DNA from: Leptolyngbya sp. DLM2.Bin15
GTDB lineage: Bacteria; Cyanobacteriota; Cyanobacteriia; RECH01
Assembly: GCA_007694125.1 (NCBI GenBank)
Contig: RECH01000230.1
Coordinates: 1 to 40,424, forward strand
Length of the DNA: 40,424 bases
Direction of reading: 5' to 3'
Below are positions 5,761 through 40,424 of the stretch, piece after piece. The position numbers were made by a program, and so were the translations under genes. Numbering within the stretch: the stretch's first letter is position 1; each line of letters begins with the position of its first letter. The notes beneath the pieces are model-generated. The model was not told the origin of the DNA, did no database searches, and was given only the letters and a program-made list of their open reading frames with translations.

Positions 5761-6336
5761 ATGACCCACTCGGATTCTAGCTCCACCTCCATGACCCGCC
5801 TGCGCAACTTAGTGGTTGTGCTTGTCGCCGTAGCGCTGTCGGTGTCTGTCTTTTTAGGCATTCAAACCAAGTCTACGGGAACGTCTCTGGCCGCTCTTGC
5901 CGAAGCATCAGTTCCCCTAGACCTGGCGTTGACCAACGGCAAGCCAACGCTGGTGGAGTTTTACGCTAACTGGTGTACGTCGTGCCAAGCCATGGCCGGC
6001 GACATGGGAACGCTCAAGCAGGCCTATGGCGATCGCCTCAACTTTGTCATGCTGAACGTAGACAACACCAAATGGCTGCCGGAAATGCTGCACTACCAAG
6101 TGGACGGCATTCCCCATTTTGTCTTTCTCGATCCTCAAGGGGAAGCGATCGCCAGCACCATTGGTGAACAGCCGCGGCCGGTGATGGCGGCAAATCTCGA
6201 TGCTCTGATCGAAGGCGGCCCCTTGCCCTATCTGCAAGGTCGGGGTCGTGTCTCGGATGTGGAAACTCGCACCGTGGCACCCTCCAGTAACGATGATCCC
6301 CGTAGCCACGGCAGTCAGGTGGTATCGCCCACGTAG
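5761..6336 (+). CDS. txlA: Membrane-anchored thioredoxin-like protein TxlA (HCF164-like)
   Basis: The protein has 191 residues. An N-terminal signal anchor (LRNLVVVLVAVALSVSVFLGI, residues 14-35) is followed by a thioredoxin fold. That fold has VEFYANWCTSCQAMAGDM, so the redox CxxC is CTSC, and the conserved cis-Pro is in DGIPHFVFLD. The C-terminus is polar and disordered-looking. TxlA/HCF164 proteins are thylakoid-membrane thiol oxidoreductases on the lumenal side. They relay reducing equivalents, with CcdA, for cytochrome and photosynthetic complex assembly. No ccdA gene lies in this window. The ATG is the first in frame and fits the anchor position. Confidence 0.88.
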   Translation: MTHSDSSSTSMTRLRNLVVVLVAVALSVSVFLGIQTKSTGTSLAALAEASVPLDLALTNGKPTLVEFYANWCTSCQAMAGDMGTLKQAYGDRLNFVMLNVDNTKWLPEMLHYQVDGIPHFVFLDPQGEAIASTIGEQPRPVMAANLDALIEGGPLPYLQGRGRVSDVETRTVAPSSNDDPRSHGSQVVSPT

Positions 6337-6342
6337 ATAGTT

Positions 6343-6903
6343 TTAGGGCACAGGCGTAATCGTGATGCGATCGCCCACTTCCAGACCCAGTTCTTCTGCT
6401 CGCCCGCCGCGTAGCTCAATCACCTGGGTGATTTGGGTATCAGGGCCGTAGGTGGGGCATACGGTTTCCCGGCAAGGCGGTACATCCTGGGCGATCGCCA
6501 CCACCTCATCCCCAGTCAGGAAAATCATATCCAGGGAAATCTCAACATTCCGCATCCAAAACCGCGTAAACCGAGGGCGATCGAAGGGAAACAGCATCCC
6601 TCGGTTGTCGGGCAGGCTGGTGCGATACATCAAACCCAGGGCCTGCTGTTCTGGGGTTTGGGCCACTTCCAGCTCAATCACCTCCCCAGCTATCAGGGCG
6701 GTAGCGGTAATCGGCAAGGATTGGGCCTGGTCGTTGAGCTCAGGACTTGGAGGTGCCTCGGAGGGCGGCGCTGTATCGGGAGAAGAAACAGTCACGGGCG
6801 GTTTGCTTGCAGGAGTGGACTCAGCCGTCGAGGGAGCCGCACAGCCCATCATCATGACACTGAGGCCCATCATGAGGGCGATCGCAGAAGCAGAGTAAAC
6901 CAT
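6343..6903 (-). CDS. DUF192 family lipoprotein
   Basis: The product has 186 residues. It has an N-terminal lipoprotein signal (ALMMGLSVMMMGCAAPS) with Cys-21 as the likely lipidated residue. A Pro/Ser-rich linker of about 45 residues follows. The DUF192 domain then runs from about residue 70 to the end: TPEQQALGLMYRTSLPDNRGMLFPF, WMRNVEISLDMIFL, GDRITI. DUF192 proteins are small envelope beta proteins of unknown function. The gene is convergent with txlA and only 6 bp away. Confidence 0.85.
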   Translation of the reverse strand: MVYSASAIALMMGLSVMMMGCAAPSTAESTPASKPPVTVSSPDTAPPSEAPPSPELNDQAQSLPITATALIAGEVIELEVAQTPEQQALGLMYRTSLPDNRGMLFPFDRPRFTRFWMRNVEISLDMIFLTGDEVVAIAQDVPPCRETVCPTYGPDTQITQVIELRGGRAEELGLEVGDRITITPVP

Positions 6904-19677: not shown

Positions 19678-19909
19678 GACAACCGTCCCTCATATTGGAT
19701 GATGAAACTGCCCTCTACCCCATGATGATGCTCAGAACCCACCTCACAGAGTAGGGGGTAATCCAGCCCTTAAGGCTAATCCTGTGGCCGATCTTAATGA
19801 TTGGGGCTCACCTATGCGCCACCGCAGTGCTCCCAACCGACCGACCTAAGAAGCGATCGCCCTGCCATCAGCCCATCTGAGCCTGCATCGAGAGCGATCG
19901 CTCCGAGTT

Positions 19910-21502
19910 CTAGGTATTGGCACCCAAGGCCACGGTGTAGGCCTCGCGGATGCCTGGCACCTTGGTGATCTCCGCCAAAATTCCGTCCGGCAGGGGATCA
20001 TCAATGCTCAAGACCATCACCGCATCACCACGGACAATCTTTCGTCCCACCTGCATACTGGCAATGTTGACATTGAAGCTGCCCAGGAGGGAGCCAATTT
20101 TGCCAATAATGCCCGGCATATCGCGGTGTAGGGTGAATAGCATATAGCGATTGGGCGGCACATTCACCGGGAAGCCATCAATGCTGGTGATCCGGATTTC
20201 GCCGTCACCCAAGATAGCCCCGGTGACGGAATGGCTGCCCATGGAACCCTTGGCTTCCAGCATCAGCGATCCCGTGTAGTCTTTCACCGACGCATCTCGG
20301 GTTTCGATGACGTGAATCCCCCGTTCCTTGGCTTCGATGGTAGCGTTTACATAGTTCACCCGCTCTTGCAGCGCATGGGAGAGCAAACCCTTAAGGGCCG
20401 CAATCACCAAAGGCTGACTTTCATTGACCGCTAGGTCACCCTGCAGACGAATGTTGAGCGACTCGATGCGTCCGCCCGCCATTTGACTGACCAAGTTGCC
20501 CAAGGTTTCTGCCAAGGCCAAGTAGGGACGCAGTTTTTCCAAGAGATCAGGACGCAAGCCAGGAATGTTCACCGCTGAGCGTGCCGGCAGCCCCAGCAAC
20601 ACATCCCGAATTTGCTCCGCCACGTCAATAGCAACGTTCACCTGAGCTTCTTCCGTCGATGCGCCTAGGTGCGGCGTCAGAATGATCTCGGTACCCAGAT
20701 CCCGCAACGGCGATTCACCCAAGGGTTCTTCTTCATAGACATCCAGAGCAGCCCCGGCAATCTTGCCCTGCTTCAGAGCTTCTGCCAATGCCAACTCATC
20801 GATAATGCCGCCGCGAGCGCAGTTGATGATCCGGGCCGTGGGTTTCATCTTATCCAGCATCTCTGCATTGATGAGATGATAGGTCTCGGGCGTTTTGGGC
20901 AAATGCAGGGTGATGTAGTCAGAGTCTTGGATGAGCAAATCTAGCTCCACCAACTGGCAGCCAATTTGCTCCGCCCGCTCCATGGACAGGAATGGATCGT
21001 AGGCCAACAGGCGCATCCCCATAGCCCGGGCGATCGTGGCAACGTGGGAGCCAATTTTACCAAGCCCCACCACACCTAAGGTTTTCTTATAGACCTCCAC
21101 CCCAGTGAACCGCTTGCGATCCCACTGGTTTGCCTTGAGGGATTGGTTGGCATCGGGGATATGGCGAGACAGGGACAACATCATGGCCACCGCATGTTCT
21201 GCAGCGGCAACCGTATTGCCTTCGGGGGAATTGACGACGATGATCCCGCGTCGTGTAGCCGCCTGCACGTCTACGTTATCAACGCCAACCCCAGCCCGAC
21301 CGATGATTTTGAGCTGAGATCCTGCCTCAATCACCTCTTTCGTCACGCGGGTACCCGACCGGATCATCAGGGCGTCGTACTCCGGAATGCAGTGAATCAG
21401 CTCATCAACCGATAGCTTGGTTTGGACATCAACCTGAGCGACCTGAGACAAAATATCAATTCCGACTTTATCAATCGGATCAGAAACGAGAACCTTTGGC
21501 AT
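19910..21502 (-). CDS. serA: D-3-phosphoglycerate dehydrogenase SerA
   Basis: The 530-residue enzyme catalyses the first step of serine synthesis from 3-phosphoglycerate. The start is set at ATG 21502 (MPKVLVSDPIDKVGIDIL), where the family begins; the ORF-track start adds nine unlikely residues. The NAD-binding GLGKIGSHVATIARAMG, INCARGGIIDE and LTPHLGASTEEAQ (catalytic His) are present. An intervening domain and a C-terminal ACT domain (YMLFTLHRDMPGIIGKIGSLLG) follow, as in long-form SerA. The ACT domain usually gives serine feedback control. Confidence 0.95.
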   Translation of the reverse strand: MPKVLVSDPIDKVGIDILSQVAQVDVQTKLSVDELIHCIPEYDALMIRSGTRVTKEVIEAGSQLKIIGRAGVGVDNVDVQAATRRGIIVVNSPEGNTVAAAEHAVAMMLSLSRHIPDANQSLKANQWDRKRFTGVEVYKKTLGVVGLGKIGSHVATIARAMGMRLLAYDPFLSMERAEQIGCQLVELDLLIQDSDYITLHLPKTPETYHLINAEMLDKMKPTARIINCARGGIIDELALAEALKQGKIAGAALDVYEEEPLGESPLRDLGTEIILTPHLGASTEEAQVNVAIDVAEQIRDVLLGLPARSAVNIPGLRPDLLEKLRPYLALAETLGNLVSQMAGGRIESLNIRLQGDLAVNESQPLVIAALKGLLSHALQERVNYVNATIEAKERGIHVIETRDASVKDYTGSLMLEAKGSMGSHSVTGAILGDGEIRITSIDGFPVNVPPNRYMLFTLHRDMPGIIGKIGSLLGSFNVNIASMQVGRKIVRGDAVMVLSIDDPLPDGILAEITKVPGIREAYTVALGANT

Positions 21503-21536
21503 GATCAGCAGATATGTTGAGTAACACAAACAACCT

Positions 21537-21562
21537 CAAAGTGGAGCGATCGCACCACTTTG
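21537..21562. promoter_or_regulatory. Hairpin/palindrome with HIP1 core upstream of serA
   Basis: CAAAGTGG and CCACTTTG form an 8-bp perfect stem. The enclosed AGCGATCGCA contains HIP1, which can extend the stem to a GATC tetraloop. It is centred about 47 bp upstream of the serA start, so it would fall in the leader or promoter. Confidence 0.4.
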
Positions 21563-21840
21563 CTTAAATACGGAGTGGCGACTGAGGCATACAGAAGCAA
21601 TGCGGGAGCAACGAGGGCAAAAACCACTCAAGACCCTATGCGGCTGCACATCAGTCTGAATGGTGCAAAACTTTTGTGGCACTGTGGGAGCAGACAACAA
21701 CTAGAAATCGCCCAAGTGTCAATTCTACTGGGTTTTGTCCAGCTTCTAAACCGAATTCCAAGAGTTTTCCATAGTATAGAGAGCATACGGAGCTTCAAAC
21801 TTGATTGACGGATAAAACGTCTGCAATCCTCATGCCCTGG

Positions 21841-21941
21841 TGGGGTGGCTTAGCGCTAGCCTAACCCAGTGGACGCTGAGCTGGTGCTGGGTTGCCCGTT
21901 GCCCAACCCCGTCTATGCAAAAAGATGGGTCAGTCAACCAG
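21841..21941 (+). repeat. About 100-bp dispersed repeat, copy 1
   Basis: It matches the reverse complement of 33267-33366. The strongest block is the identical GATGGGTCAGTCAACCAG at its right end, preceded by AGCTGGTGCTGGGTT and TTAGCGctAGCctAACCCA-like blocks. Alignment by eye is nearly gap-free and about 70% identical overall. There is no ORF inside. Confidence 0.75.
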
Positions 21942-22086
21942 GCTGCGCCGTAGATCCATGGGGTCAACCCTGTTGAACCTATGATGGGCAAGATGGTTGA
22001 GCACTACCACTGTTATTAGCAATGTCAGTCATTCTTGATACAAAATTTGATACTCTAGTTCAAATATAGATTTGGGGGCGACTCGC

Positions 22087-23250
22087 GTGACTATACAACT
22101 TGGTAGAGGCAAAACTGCTAGACGGGCCTATGGTATTGATGAAATTGCCCTCGTGCCAGGGACAAGAACTCTGGATCCGTCCCTAGCGGATACAAGCTGG
22201 AGCATGGGCGGCATTGAGCGTGAGATTCCCATCATTGCCAGTGCTATGGACGGCGTGATTGATGTGGGCATGGCGGTCAAGCTCTCTCAGTTGGGAGCCA
22301 TGGGTGTGCTTAACCTAGAAGGCATCCAAACTCGCTACGACGATCCTAACCCCATCCTCGATCGCATCACCTCGGTGGGCAAGGATGAGTTTGTACCCCT
22401 CATGCAAGAACTCTATGCTGAACCCGTCAAGCCAGAGCTGATCAAACGGCGCATTCAGGAAATCAAGTCCCAGGGAGGGATTGCTGCGGTTAGTATTACC
22501 CCAGTCGGTGCCACTCGCTTTGGGGCGGCTATTGCCGAAGCTGGTGCAGATATTGTGTTTGTTCAAGCGACCGTGGTGTCTACGGCTCACCTATCGCCTG
22601 AAGCCGTAACGCCTTTGGATTTAGCTGACTTCTGCCGCGAGATGCCGATGCCTGTGGTGTTGGGCAACTGTGTCACCTATGATGTGACGCTCAACCTGAT
22701 GAAGGCGGGTGCTGCTGGTGTGTTAGTGGGCATTGGCCCTGGCGCTGCCTGCACGTCTCGCGGTGTTTTGGGTGTGGGGGTTCCTCAAGCAACGGCTGTG
22801 GCCGACTGCGCCGCCGCTCGGGATGATTATTTCCAAGAAACAGGGCGCTATGTGCCGGTGATTGCGGATGGTGGTCTGGTGACTGGCGGCGATATCTGCA
22901 AGTGTATTGCCTGCGGTGCCGATGCCGTGATGATTGGCTCTCCCTTTGCTCGGGCCCAGGAAGCACCGGGCCGAGGTTTTCACTGGGGGATGGCCACCCC
23001 TAGCCCCGTTCTACCGCGTGGTACCCGCATTCGTGTGGGCACGACGGGCACGCTAGAACAAATTCTGCGGGGCCCAGCTCAGCTCGATGATGGTACCCAC
23101 AACTTCCTAGGGGCGTTGCAAACCAGCATGGGCACCCTCGGCGCGAAGGACATTCGTGAGATGCAGCAGGTGGAAGTGATCGTGGCACCCTCGCTGCTCA
23201 CGGAAGGTAAGGTCTATCAAAAGGCACAGCAGCTAGGCATGGGTAAGTAA
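22087..23250 (+). CDS. guaB3: GuaB3-type IMP dehydrogenase-related protein (probable GMP reductase)
   Basis: The protein is 387 residues from GTG 22087, chosen because GGGGG lies 8 bases upstream and [25 protein letters not shown] is the family N-terminus. It is a TIM barrel with the catalytic-Cys loop [39 protein letters not shown] and MIGSPFARA. The CBS (Bateman) module of true IMP dehydrogenase is absent. GuaB3 proteins of actinobacteria and cyanobacteria were long annotated as IMP dehydrogenases. A cyanobacterial member has been reported to act as a GMP reductase in guanine-nucleotide recycling. A strong hairpin follows the gene. Confidence 0.88.
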
Positions 23251-23262
23251 TGTGCAACTCTG

Positions 23263-23299
23263 GAGGATACCTGAGTCCAGGCTAGACTTAGGTATCCTC
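23263..23299 (+). terminator. Terminator-like hairpin after guaB3
   Basis: GAGGATACCT pairs with AGGTATCCTC, then GAGTC with GACTT (one G-U), giving a 15-bp stem with a 7-nt loop. It lies 12 bp past the guaB3 stop. The downstream sequence TAGGAGG lacks a T-run. Confidence 0.5.
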
Positions 23300-23317
23300 T
23301 AGGAGGAAAGATATGAA

Positions 23318-23363
23318 GCGATCGCCCTGTTCTACTGAGCCTAGAGTGGTAGAAGGCGATCGC
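23318..23363. promoter_or_regulatory. HIP1-armed hairpin in front of the Rad50-like gene
   Basis: GCGATCGCC then TTCTAC on the left pairs with GTAGAAGGCGATCGC on the right, with a 3-nt bulge. The stem is about 15 bp and uses two HIP1 sites as its outer arms. It ends about 48 bp before the ATPase start. Confidence 0.4.
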
Positions 23364-36872: not shown

Positions 36873-37769
36873 ATGGCCCACGGTTTATTTATTGGACTCA
36901 CCACCCTCGACGTGATTTACCACGTAGATGTTCTGCCCCATCCTAACCAAAAGATTGTAGCCGAAGACTACGACATCGCTGCGGGCGGCCCCGCCACCAA
37001 CGCCGCCGTTGCCTTCCAGCATTTGGGACAAGGGCAGCATGACAGTACGCTGCTCAGCGGCATTGGCAGCCATGCTCTCGGCAGCATCCTGCGCTCCGAT
37101 ATCCAAGCCTGCGGCCTGACCCACTGGGATCTGCATCCCCAGCGTTCTGAACCACCGCCCACATCATCGATCCTCGTCACCCAAGCCAGGGGCGATCGCG
37201 CCGTAGTCTCCCTCAATGCTACCCGCGCCCAAGCCGGGGGCGATCGCATTCCAGACCAGCTCTGGACAGCGATCGACAACCGCCGGGTTGACGTGGTGCT
37301 GATCGACGGTCATCAAATGGCGGTGAGTGCGGCGATCGCCCCTCGGGCTAAGCAGGCTCAGATCCCGATCGTCATCGATGGTGGTAGCTGGAAACCGGGG
37401 TTTGAGAAGGTGCTGCCCTGGGCCGACTACGCCATCTGTTCCGCCAACTTTCAGCCACCCCAAGGCTCGACGCCAGAGGATCGACGACGGTATCTGATCG
37501 ACCTGGGCATTCCTCACGTCATCGTCACCCAGGGCGATCGCCCCATTCAATGGTGGAAGGGCGATCGCCTGCAGGAAATTCCCGTGCCCACCATCCAGCC
37601 CGTGGACACCCTAGGAGCTGGAGACATTTTCCATGGCGCATTCTGCCACTTCATCCTCACCGAATCGGTGGAAACAGCTCTACACCAAGCTGCCCAATGC
37701 GCCGCTGCAGCCTGTTTATATCGCGGTACCCGTCGCTGGCGATCGCCCTCCTCAACTGACTCGTATTAG
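36873..37769 (+). CDS. PfkB-family carbohydrate/nucleoside kinase
   Basis: The protein is 298 residues from ATG 36873; a TTG two codons earlier is possible. The N-terminal GLTTLDVIYHVDVLPHPNQKIVA, then AAGGPATNAAVAFQHLG and the C-terminal PVDTLGAGDIFHGAFCHFIL (catalytic Asp in GAGD) are the PfkB signatures. The protein ends with LYRGTRRW, near where relatives end. The substrate may be a sugar or nucleoside and cannot be chosen from the sequence. It diverges from rsmI with about 60 bp between starts. Confidence 0.88.
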   Translation: MAHGLFIGLTTLDVIYHVDVLPHPNQKIVAEDYDIAAGGPATNAAVAFQHLGQGQHDSTLLSGIGSHALGSILRSDIQACGLTHWDLHPQRSEPPPTSSILVTQARGDRAVVSLNATRAQAGGDRIPDQLWTAIDNRRVDVVLIDGHQMAVSAAIAPRAKQAQIPIVIDGGSWKPGFEKVLPWADYAICSANFQPPQGSTPEDRRRYLIDLGIPHVIVTQGDRPIQWWKGDRLQEIPVPTIQPVDTLGAGDIFHGAFCHFILTESVETALHQAAQCAAAACLYRGTRRWRSPSSTDSY

Positions 37770-37871
37770 GAATTCAATTGGTATGACCTATAAGTCTGGA
37801 TTGCAAATGTCTTTCCAGAAGGGTGCAGTGTCAGGGTTTAGAGCCACTCAAAACTGAGCGGTTAAGAAGGA

Positions 37872-37901
37872 TTGACACAAAAACCGTCCAGACGGTATAG
37901 T
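37872..37901 (+). promoter_or_regulatory. Promoter with embedded inverted-repeat operator for the TetR gene
   Basis: The -35 TTGACA (37872-37877) and -10 TATAGT (37896-37901) are separated by 18 bp. The spacer holds ACCGTC-CA-GACGGT (37883-37896), a 14-bp inverted repeat of the TetR-operator type. Repressor bound there would block RNA polymerase, so autoregulation is likely. Confidence 0.65.
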
Positions 37902-37998
37902 TACTTTTGTGAGCACGTCCAGGTTTTTGGCAATCTCCCTCTTGATTGCCCAAGAGGTTGACTGTGCTTACGTTCTTGCTGCTCTCCTGGCCCCTTCT

Positions 37999-38565
37999 AT
38001 GGCAACTTCCAAAACGTCAAAATCTCGATCAGATACTCGTGAATCACTTCTGAAAGCTGCCAGTCAAGTTGTGATTGATAAGGGGGTTGAGGCGTTAACC
38101 CTAGACGCTGTTGCAAAACAAGCTGGCGTCAGCAAGGGAGGGCTACTCTATCATTTCCCTAACAAAGATGCGTTGATAGGAGGTATGGTTGAGCACCTGA
38201 TTCAAGAGTTTGAAGCGGTGCTGCAAACTGAGTTTGACCAGGATGATGCGCCAGGAACACCAGGACAGTGGGTGCGAGCATACATACGAGCAACGCTACG
38301 GTTTAGCAAACAATCGCTGGCATTAATTGCCCGTCTTACCTCAATTGCGGCTGACTCACCCAATTTGTTTGAAGCTGCCAACGTTTATGACCAGCAGTTG
38401 CGACAGCGGATTGAAGCCAGTGGAATCGACCCCACTAAGGCAACGATTATTATGTTAGCGATCGATGGTTTATGGCTCTCAGAAGTATTTCAGGTTGGCA
38501 CCCTAGAGGAACCTCGTCTGGCTCAAGTGCTAGAAACATTGCTTGAGATGACGCGCACCGATTAG
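37999..38565 (+). CDS. TetR/AcrR-family transcriptional regulator
   Basis: The protein is 188 residues from ATG 37999 (MATSKTSKSRSDTRESLLKAASQVV); the 30 codons upstream in the ORF are not TetR-like. The N-terminal helix-turn-helix ALTLDAVAKQAGVSKGGLLYHFPNKDALI is clear. The C-terminal all-helical ligand-binding domain contains YIRATLRFSKQSLALIARLTSIAADSP. The embedded operator 100 bp upstream suggests self-repression. The membrane protein and MBL hydrolase downstream are probable targets. The block lacks HIP1 sites. Confidence 0.88.
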   Translation: MATSKTSKSRSDTRESLLKAASQVVIDKGVEALTLDAVAKQAGVSKGGLLYHFPNKDALIGGMVEHLIQEFEAVLQTEFDQDDAPGTPGQWVRAYIRATLRFSKQSLALIARLTSIAADSPNLFEAANVYDQQLRQRIEASGIDPTKATIIMLAIDGLWLSEVFQVGTLEEPRLAQVLETLLEMTRTD

Positions 38566-38676
38566 TGATCTAGATATTTTCCCAATTCATTGATCCAATG
38601 CTGATGACTCCAGGTCATTCAGCGAATGTGGTCTGCGAATTTTTCACGATTTACACCCTTAAATCCTATCCTCACC

Positions 38677-39159
38677 ATGCTGATAGCTGAGTACATGACC
38701 AAAGCACTGGCTACCTGGTTGGTTGGTTTCTTTCCTTACGCTGAGGTCTATGTCGCAGTTGCAGCAGGAATGGCCATGCAACTGGATGTGGTGTCATCGG
38801 TGGTTTGGGGAGTGTTTGGTAACTTTACGCCTGTTCCTTTGATGCTGTGGAGCTACGGTCGATTGATGGGTATTCCTCGATTACGCGCCTGGTTATTGCG
38901 GATGGAAATACGCGCCTGGTTATTGCGGATAGAAAAACGGGGTGGACAAAGCGCAAAACGCGCTTTTGATCGCTATGGCATCTGGTTTCTGATTCTGATG
39001 ACTCCAATTCTTGGCAGTTGGACGATCGCCGTTGTGACTCCAATCATCGGTATCCATCCCAGACGAATACTCCTCTTTTCATTCATTAGCATCACGCTCT
39101 ATGGCGTGCTTACGGCGGCAGCGATCGCCTCTGGTGTCAGTTGGGTTACACACCGTTAG
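38677..39159 (+). CDS. Small multidrug-export-type membrane protein (COG2426-like)
   Basis: The protein is 160 residues from ATG 38677; an in-frame ATG at 38626 would add 17. Helices are AEYMTKALATWLVGFFPYAEVYVAVAAGMAM, VVWGVFGNFTPVPLMLW, YGIWFLILMTPILGSWTIAVVTPIIG and ILLFSFISITLYGVLTAAAIA. The E--V-VA-G and GN--PVP patterns fit the small multidrug export family PF06695. The cytoplasmic loop carries a tandem 27-bp duplication (RAWLLRMEI/RAWLLRIEK). It is probably an efflux or membrane-stress protein under the TetR regulator. Confidence 0.75.
   Translation: MLIAEYMTKALATWLVGFFPYAEVYVAVAAGMAMQLDVVSSVVWGVFGNFTPVPLMLWSYGRLMGIPRLRAWLLRMEIRAWLLRIEKRGGQSAKRAFDRYGIWFLILMTPILGSWTIAVVTPIIGIHPRRILLFSFISITLYGVLTAAAIASGVSWVTHR
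38883..38936 (+). repeat. In-frame 27-bp tandem duplication
   Basis: ACGCGCCTGGTTATTGCGGA-type units at 38883-38909 and 38910-38936 differ at only a few bases near their ends. They encode nine residues each inside the cytoplasmic loop of the membrane protein. Confidence 0.85.
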
Positions 39160-39245
39160 CGCCAACTCCAACATTCGATTCCTAAACTATCTGATCTACA
39201 ACGTCTTCTCTCCACGCCAACTCAAACAGTACTCAAGTTATTTAT

Positions 39246-40064
39246 ATGCACATTCATCACCTCAATTGTGGTACCAATTGCCCGCTGGGTGGACGGCTAA
39301 TTGACGGCATTAGCAAAGGTCTAACGGCAAAGCTGGTATGCCATTGCCTACTGATTGAATCAGCGGAGGGGCTGGTGCTAGTTGACACTGGACTTGGCAC
39401 CGAGGATGTACAACGCCCTGTTCCCCGGCTCAGCGCTACCTTTCTACTCATGAACAACTTCCAACTCCGGCCCCAGGAAACGGCCCTTGCTCAGCTGAAG
39501 TCTGCCGGATATAACCCCAACGATGTGCGCCATATTGTCCTGACACATCTAGATTTTGACCATGCAGGCGGCGTTAGTGATTTTCCCCATGCCACGGTGC
39601 ATGTGATGGCCGACGAGCTACGGGCAGCAAAAGAGCGTCAAGGATTTTGGGGGGTTCGGAGGTATCGACCTGTGCAGTGGAGTCGTGTCGCTAAGTGGCA
39701 ACTTTACGAACCTCAAGGCGAAACCTGGAACGGCTTTCAGGCTGTGAAGCAGCTTGAGGGTCTGCCATCTGATATTCTTTTGATTTCGCTGATAGGACAC
39801 TCTAGAGGTCATGCAGGTATCGCCATTCGGCAAGCTGACGGTTGGCTGCTCCATGCAGGCGATGCCTATGTGCATCACTCCGAACTCCAGTACGACTCGA
39901 TTTATCCAGGGATCGTTGAATATCAGGGACTACTGGATGTAGACAGGAAAGCGCGTATTCAAAATCAGACCCGACTTAGGGAATTAGCCAATAACCCCGC
40001 AGCCAAGGTTCACGTTTTTTGCTCTCATGATCCCCTTGAGTTAGCCCAACTGAGCAACGCCTAA
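39246..40064 (+). CDS. MBL-fold metallo-hydrolase, lactonase-like
   Basis: The 272-residue product starts MHIHHLNCGTNCPLGGRLIDG. The metal site is HIVLTHLDFDHAGG, so HxHxDH has Asp at the second His. Further ligands are in GHSRGHAG (His), HAGDAYVHH (Asp) and FCSHDPLE (His). The HLNCGTxCPxGGRL opening and RPxQW region place it with lactonase-like MBL hydrolases of the COG0491 type. Acyl-homoserine-lactone cleavage is possible but unproven. It lies 86 bp after the membrane protein and may share its transcript and TetR control. Confidence 0.82.
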   Translation: MHIHHLNCGTNCPLGGRLIDGISKGLTAKLVCHCLLIESAEGLVLVDTGLGTEDVQRPVPRLSATFLLMNNFQLRPQETALAQLKSAGYNPNDVRHIVLTHLDFDHAGGVSDFPHATVHVMADELRAAKERQGFWGVRRYRPVQWSRVAKWQLYEPQGETWNGFQAVKQLEGLPSDILLISLIGHSRGHAGIAIRQADGWLLHAGDAYVHHSELQYDSIYPGIVEYQGLLDVDRKARIQNQTRLRELANNPAAKVHVFCSHDPLELAQLSNA

Positions 40065-40237
40065 TGACAAATCCCCCTGAGGGCGAAATCGTGCTAGGTC
40101 GTGGTTTAAAACTCATCCAAACCCTGATTCTCTCGTACGAAAGATCAAGAGGTTTAGCAGGTTTTAAAACAGAGCCTAGTACCAATTAAAGGTGAAGCTG
40201 CGTCAAACTAGAGAAATCCCTTTTAAGTCTAAAAAAC
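40065..40237. other. Junction between the hydrolase gene and the insertion sequence
   Basis: This 173-bp stretch holds no gene. The left end of the IS should lie here, perhaps near the TA in CCTAGTACCAATTAAAGG (40172-40189). The matching right end is outside the window, so the terminal inverted repeat cannot be proven. Confidence 0.35.
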
Positions 40238-40424
40238 ATGAAAGGATGCCCCTTCCAAATCACGGTGACAGAGAGCTTGGAGCAGCTAGAAAAATTCCTG
40301 CAAAAGGCTTGGATAGTCAGCCAAAAAGAACGCTCAGAAATGCTGGTATGGTTAAAGCAGGGCGTGGTGAATAGCCGAGGAGAGCTAGCGTCCACTGTAA
40401 GCGCCAACCCCTCCACTATCAATT
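40238..40424 (+). mobile_element. IS630-type transposase, N-terminal part (cut by window end)
   Basis: The frame is open from ATG 40238 to the window edge and absent from the ORF track. It reads MKGCPFQITVTESLEQLEKF, then QKERSEMLVWLKQGVVNSRGELASTVSANPSTIN. That matches the N-terminal helix-turn-helix of cyanobacterial IS630 transposases, which typically has a TES-EEL start, KER-Q-LYWLK and an ELA-----R-TV recognition helix. No catalytic DDE residues are visible because the gene runs off the window. It shows that this end of the block is a mobile-element junction. Confidence 0.6.

Follow-up and report, generated by a model that had tools for sequence, protein, structure and literature searches.

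In Listeria, SugR represses its own SMR pump operon, and mutations in its gene or in the promoter derepress the operon and raise tolerance (PMC10580936). In the quaternary-ammonium systems SugR-SugE1/E2 and BcrABC of Listeria, a TetR self-repressor heads a small-exporter operon (PMC10580936); the locus described here is likened to them in kind, from that description. CgmR of Corynebacterium glutamicum (structures 2yvh, with operator, and 2zoz) is a multidrug-binding repressor that occupies a 32-bp operator in the form of a dimer of dimers (PMC4150764). In TetR-QacH operons of Bacillota plasmids (e.g. pLIS12, pBT469-1), the regulator gene stands first and the membrane gene second, as in the present locus. 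The PF06695 family has been tied to DedA/VTT (PF09335) by HHpred, with transport predicted (PMC7818093). A block at the end of the 40,424-nucleotide stretch of Leptolyngbya sp. DLM2.Bin15 DNA analysed here (the window) is read, with a probability of about 0.78, as an operon of the TetR-efflux/detoxification kind that came in by horizontal transfer and is repressed by its own TetR. Inducibility, on the likeliest reading by the operon's own substrate, is plausible on TetR-family grounds.

The tetR repressor gene occupies positions 37999–38565 (plus strand, ATG at 37999). Its product matches TetR_N (PF00440, 53.4 bits; curated cut-off 24) and TetR_C_28 (PF17937, 82.8 bits; cut-off 26.4) in the profile search. 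By sequence comparison, the nearest solved structures are 2yvh and 2zoz; identity to CgmR is low, although it is the closest solved relative. The recognition helix SKGGLLYHF, similar to SKSGLIYHF of CgmR as judged by protein sequence, shows no or almost no variation among 14 aligned homologues and is invariant where the operator is conserved. As in TetR-family members, a palindromic operator is assigned to the gene's own promoter, an assignment made by sequence and footprinting only.

The promoter upstream consists of a −35 hexamer TTGACA (37872–37877, plus strand; most orthologues retain it as TTGAC(A)) and a −10 hexamer TATAGT (37896–37901, plus strand). Their spacer of 18 encloses the candidate TetR operator ACCGTC-CA-GACGGT (37883–37896, plus strand), proposed on cross-homologue conservation; its last T is the first T of the −10 hexamer. 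The letters and positions of this arrangement, given in the original prediction, are confirmed, and its claim that the palindrome is a TetR operator receives strong support from phylogenetic footprinting and from the identical site in Bacillota TetR-QacH operons. The promoter score of 11/12 is the top match in the region, but the scan found 3 promoter-like matches against 2.9 expected from shuffles, so that the score alone means little. Perfect 6-2-6 palindromes number eight in the 40-kb window, two of them HIP1; a palindrome by itself is thus not rare, and its significance rests on conservation. A search for further operator copies, recommended with the original prediction, found the exact 14-mer once in the 5.0-Mb genome. 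Seven further palindromic near-sites (arms only, one mismatch allowed) are fewer than those of a reversed-pattern control. A wider regulon in this genome was rejected on these two counts. A structured leader RNA was also rejected (seven pairs, none with a compensatory change; no Rfam match). The operator letters (ACCGTCTGGACGGT and other spellings) turned up in no publication of the open-access literature searched, where strings in figures may escape a search.

Regulator homologues were gathered from the contigs of the genome, from close genomes and from 390 genomes of the class. The footprinting set comprised the 29 cyanobacterial TetR homologues with E < 1e-25 and a locus, strand-corrected. 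The site lies 31–249 bp upstream in 29/29 (0–2 arm mismatches), with perfect arms in 21, one mismatch in four and two in four; the homologues are kin and do not represent 29 independent events. The homologues are 40–89% identical; with regulator identity down to about 43% the arms are still fixed, and the flanking bases vary. At most of these loci the site is enclosed by TTGACA and a −10-like hexamer. Seven TetR genes further removed are without it (best match with 3–5 mismatches). The same site precedes homologues in Paenibacillus, Virgibacillus, one Myxococcota genome, one Chloroflexi genome and Azoarcus; the homologues of Ensifer and Roseateles are without it. On the plasmids Listeria pLIS12, Brochothrix pBT469-1 and Rossellomorea p25, the TetR-QacH genes are preceded by the identical 14-mer, with TTGACA on one side of it and a −10-like hexamer on the other. 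A count over about 1.06 Mb of DNA, part of it overlapping, yields 61 perfect sites with the arm ACCGTC; control arms with the same base composition average 0.06. The sites listed stand just upstream of homologous tetR genes.

The second gene (38677–39159, plus strand) encodes a PF06695 'small multi-drug export' membrane protein of 160 aa. The start was picked from homologues, which make 38677 more likely than a further ATG upstream at 38626. The Sm_multidrug_ex profile is matched with 48.5 bits (cut-off 30.7). A 27-bp in-frame tandem duplication (38882–38939, plus strand) adds 9 aa that are absent from all aligned homologues. The AlphaFold model, built on a shallow alignment, is unusable at a pLDDT of 46.8. 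The TetR, the small multidrug-export-type protein and the MBL hydrolase that the original prediction placed downstream of the promoter are confirmed as genes and domains; 'multidrug export', however, is a family name and putative, and efflux by this protein is unproven. Three PF06695 homologues give sub-threshold VTT matches (E 0.001–0.013); the present protein gives none in the profile search. In hhalign, PF06695 homologues gave no match to two DedA proteins of this genome or to SMR proteins, a test of little power because each was represented by a single template sequence. No SMR match was found among the locus proteins in the profile search, so the SMR cargo of the TetR-QacH, BcrA or SugR type is absent from them.

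In the nearest relatives the usual gene order is TetR – PF06695 – cytochrome P450; one relative has TetR-P450 without PF06695. The P450 is absent from the present block; all that remains of it in the genome is a C-terminal part and a tail fragment, both on another contig (C33). A second group, with a Synechocystis plasmid among its members, has PF06695-P450 pairs next to a different TetR and lacks the ACCGTC operator. Since the pair is found with two kinds of TetR, it constitutes a recurring core. Its joint function is apparently without description in the papers searched. At four loci (L151, L154, L155 and L183) with PF06695-P450 pairs under the different TetR, GTAATA-NN-TATTAC palindromes were observed in the intergenic region; they are likely a second operator type. 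In Scytonema sp. NIES-4073 (L013, about 6001–6677), a second cassette copy lies near the first, and a deletion removes its tetR end and PF06695 start. The Enterococcus faecium plasmid pEF0656-2 (L185, 2385–3438) carries a TetR-PF06695 pair, but its TetR is a distant one and this operator is missing.

Two same-genus genomes are without the TetR and PF06695 genes and have the upstream PfkB-family kinase with 94–95% identity. DNA homology with them runs out where the kinase gene finishes, at 37764 and 37771 (left junction 37738–37771, plus strand, at the 3' end of that gene). The next 3.7 kb of these genomes correspond to contig C361 of the present genome (172–3878, 89%). Contig C361 begins with about 80 bases readable as a transposase-like tail, then a short kinase piece, then a 22-bp repeat; the latter is the window sequence 37738–37759, recurring at the right junction (C361:143–164). 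The window ends at a contig end, and the order C374 to C361 is taken from synteny, not from the assembly. HIP1 octamers mark the end of the rearranged kinase piece at the right junction (C361 1–176, L080); it looks like a duplicate from which the DNA separating two HIP1 sites has dropped out. The TetR-PF06695 DNA is 80.6–81.3% identical to that of two genomes of other families (G022 and G098). Third-position GC is 0.43–0.52 in the block, against 0.66 in two upstream genes. No relative of the whole block was found in the plasmid DNA search.

Acquisition of the block, claimed in the original prediction, is thus supported by the empty site found on inspection of gene content in close relatives and by the DNA identity of about 81% with unrelated families. 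Evidence to the contrary, named there as a syntenic occurrence of this block in distant cyanobacteria, was looked for: homologous cassettes exist, but their surroundings differ in the neighbourhoods compared. The poverty in HIP1 octamers, from which acquisition had been argued, holds as a count (exactly one after 37746, at 39121) but is not specific evidence. It was rejected as proof, since a 3.4-kb stretch of the same window (19901–23318) encoding serA and a guaB-like gene also has one octamer and is equally poor. Past the coding genes lies a palindromic MITE-like repeat CTAGG...CCTAG of about 88 bp (40094–40180, no strand assigned), with three further close copies on contigs C129, C181 and C94 of the genome. 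It is followed by an IS630-like ORF (40238–40424, plus strand) cut by the contig end and 37–47% identical to cyanobacterial transposase N-termini, including that of ISAcma28. Of the IS630 end announced in the original prediction, the transposase-like ORF is present as its N-terminal part; a complete transposase with ends was not found before the contig end.

Three other explanations were weighed. That the palindrome is an intrinsic terminator or a chance inverted repeat is hardly credible. The terminator scan does report a weak terminator-like site here on the minus strand (stem 5, then T-rich sequence). The palindrome, however, lies inside a promoter, its conservation alongside the same regulator extends across phyla, and arms that stay identical around a varying centre (CA, TG, TA and CG among homologues) favour recognition by a protein. 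An improbable history, though less so, is a block that the ancestor of the genus already had and that the two sister genomes lost, with low GC and few HIP1 octamers reflecting old divergence. Two same-genus genomes are the whole count, with which two losses or one shared loss are compatible. Against it, a genome of the same family (G003) is also without close homologues, and the homology break at the kinase stop codon is clean. The DNA identity to other families is, moreover, high for the distance, as the kinase there has 52–58% protein identity. Acquisition remains the preferred reading.

The third explanation concerns the MBL-fold hydrolase, whose gene (39246–40064) is contained in a block at 39185–40057 (plus strand). 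On this explanation, TetR, PF06695 and MBL would form one co-inherited efflux-plus-hydrolase module, the MBL protein degrading the compound exported by the membrane protein. The genes are on the same strand, with an 87-bp gap and no terminator match between PF06695 and MBL, and the MBL block also occurs downstream of a PF06695 gene in a genome of another family (G120) and between P450 fragments on contig C33. The module is nevertheless doubtful. MBL is absent from the other TetR-PF06695 loci examined and from their 6-kb surroundings, and the usual third gene is the P450. Homology to the other MBL copies begins and ends sharply around the gene, and the block DNA is 95% identical to G120:C33 and 93% to the C33 copy of its own genome, with different flanks each time, against 62–66% for the PF06695 genes. 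The efflux-plus-hydrolase module of the original prediction is therefore unsupported as an ancestral unit: the conserved third gene of such loci is a P450, and MBL has a block of its own. We infer from sequence a separate mobile block, seen in three contexts and each time beside cassette parts. It appears to move alone but would tend to settle near the TetR-PF06695-P450 cassette, a tendency drawn from three cases only. On the own-genome contig C33 (L150, 185–1773), a P450 C-terminal part, the MBL copy and then an 85% repeated P450 tail follow one another; the MBL block there is apparently inside or behind a P450 gene. The best solved relatives of the MBL protein are AiiA-type N-acyl homoserine lactonases. 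Its scores against the AiiA/AttM lactonase equivalogs, 62.6 bits (cut-off 375) and 54.3 bits (cut-off 390), fall far below the curated thresholds, and HLDFDH stands at the position of the AiiA metal motif HxHxDH.

The preferred reading, an acquired TetR-autorepressed operon, starts from what is read in the letters: the site and the way it is conserved together with this regulator, TetR paired with PF06695 (and P450), and the absence of the block from the sister genomes. For TetR binding, repression, ligand, transport and read-through into MBL, we infer the following course. A TetR dimer or a pair of dimers would bind ACCGTC-NN-GACGGT in the promoter spacer and exclude RNA polymerase. A lipophilic or cationic toxic ligand would bind the C-terminal domain of TetR and release it, allowing transcription of tetR and the PF06695 gene, possibly also of the MBL hydrolase. 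Against this model stand the lost P450, the private 9-aa duplication, the separate arrival of MBL and the lack of a proven pump, SMR or otherwise, at this locus; the local operon may be in decay, or its ancestral function may be gone.

A guess made by eye at an operator has become a specific, testable site common to cyanobacterial and Bacillota regulators, and one gel-shift could test the whole group. A recurring cyanobacterial gene pair, PF06695 membrane protein and cytochrome P450, is named. The promoter-operator is an inducible-promoter candidate for cyanobacteria.

Compared with the described systems, the regulator is about 39–43% identical to the TetR of TetR-QacH, in which the identical 14-mer has the same promoter position. 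The distance from operator to tetR start is about 20 bp there and about 100 bp here. The cargo is an SMR pump in TetR-QacH (QacH), in SugR-SugE1/E2 and in BcrABC, unlike the PF06695 protein here. Across the group, TetR homologues neighbour SMR-like pumps, HlyD-like subunits and one RND-like protein; the Azoarcus homologue lies near the non-efflux genes betAB/hydantoinase. It is tentatively suggested, as a less than even prospect, that a portable inducible head (SKGGLLYHF-type TetR with in-promoter ACCGTC-NN-GACGGT) spreads across phyla onto varied cargo: SMR pumps, HlyD-type exporters and the undescribed cyanobacterial PF06695-P450 pair, which might first modify a lipophilic compound and then transport it. 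Elsewhere the head would be replaced on the PF06695-P450 core by the second TetR with GTAATA-NN-TATTAC sites. The locus is a known kind of system, but with an unusual set of partners.
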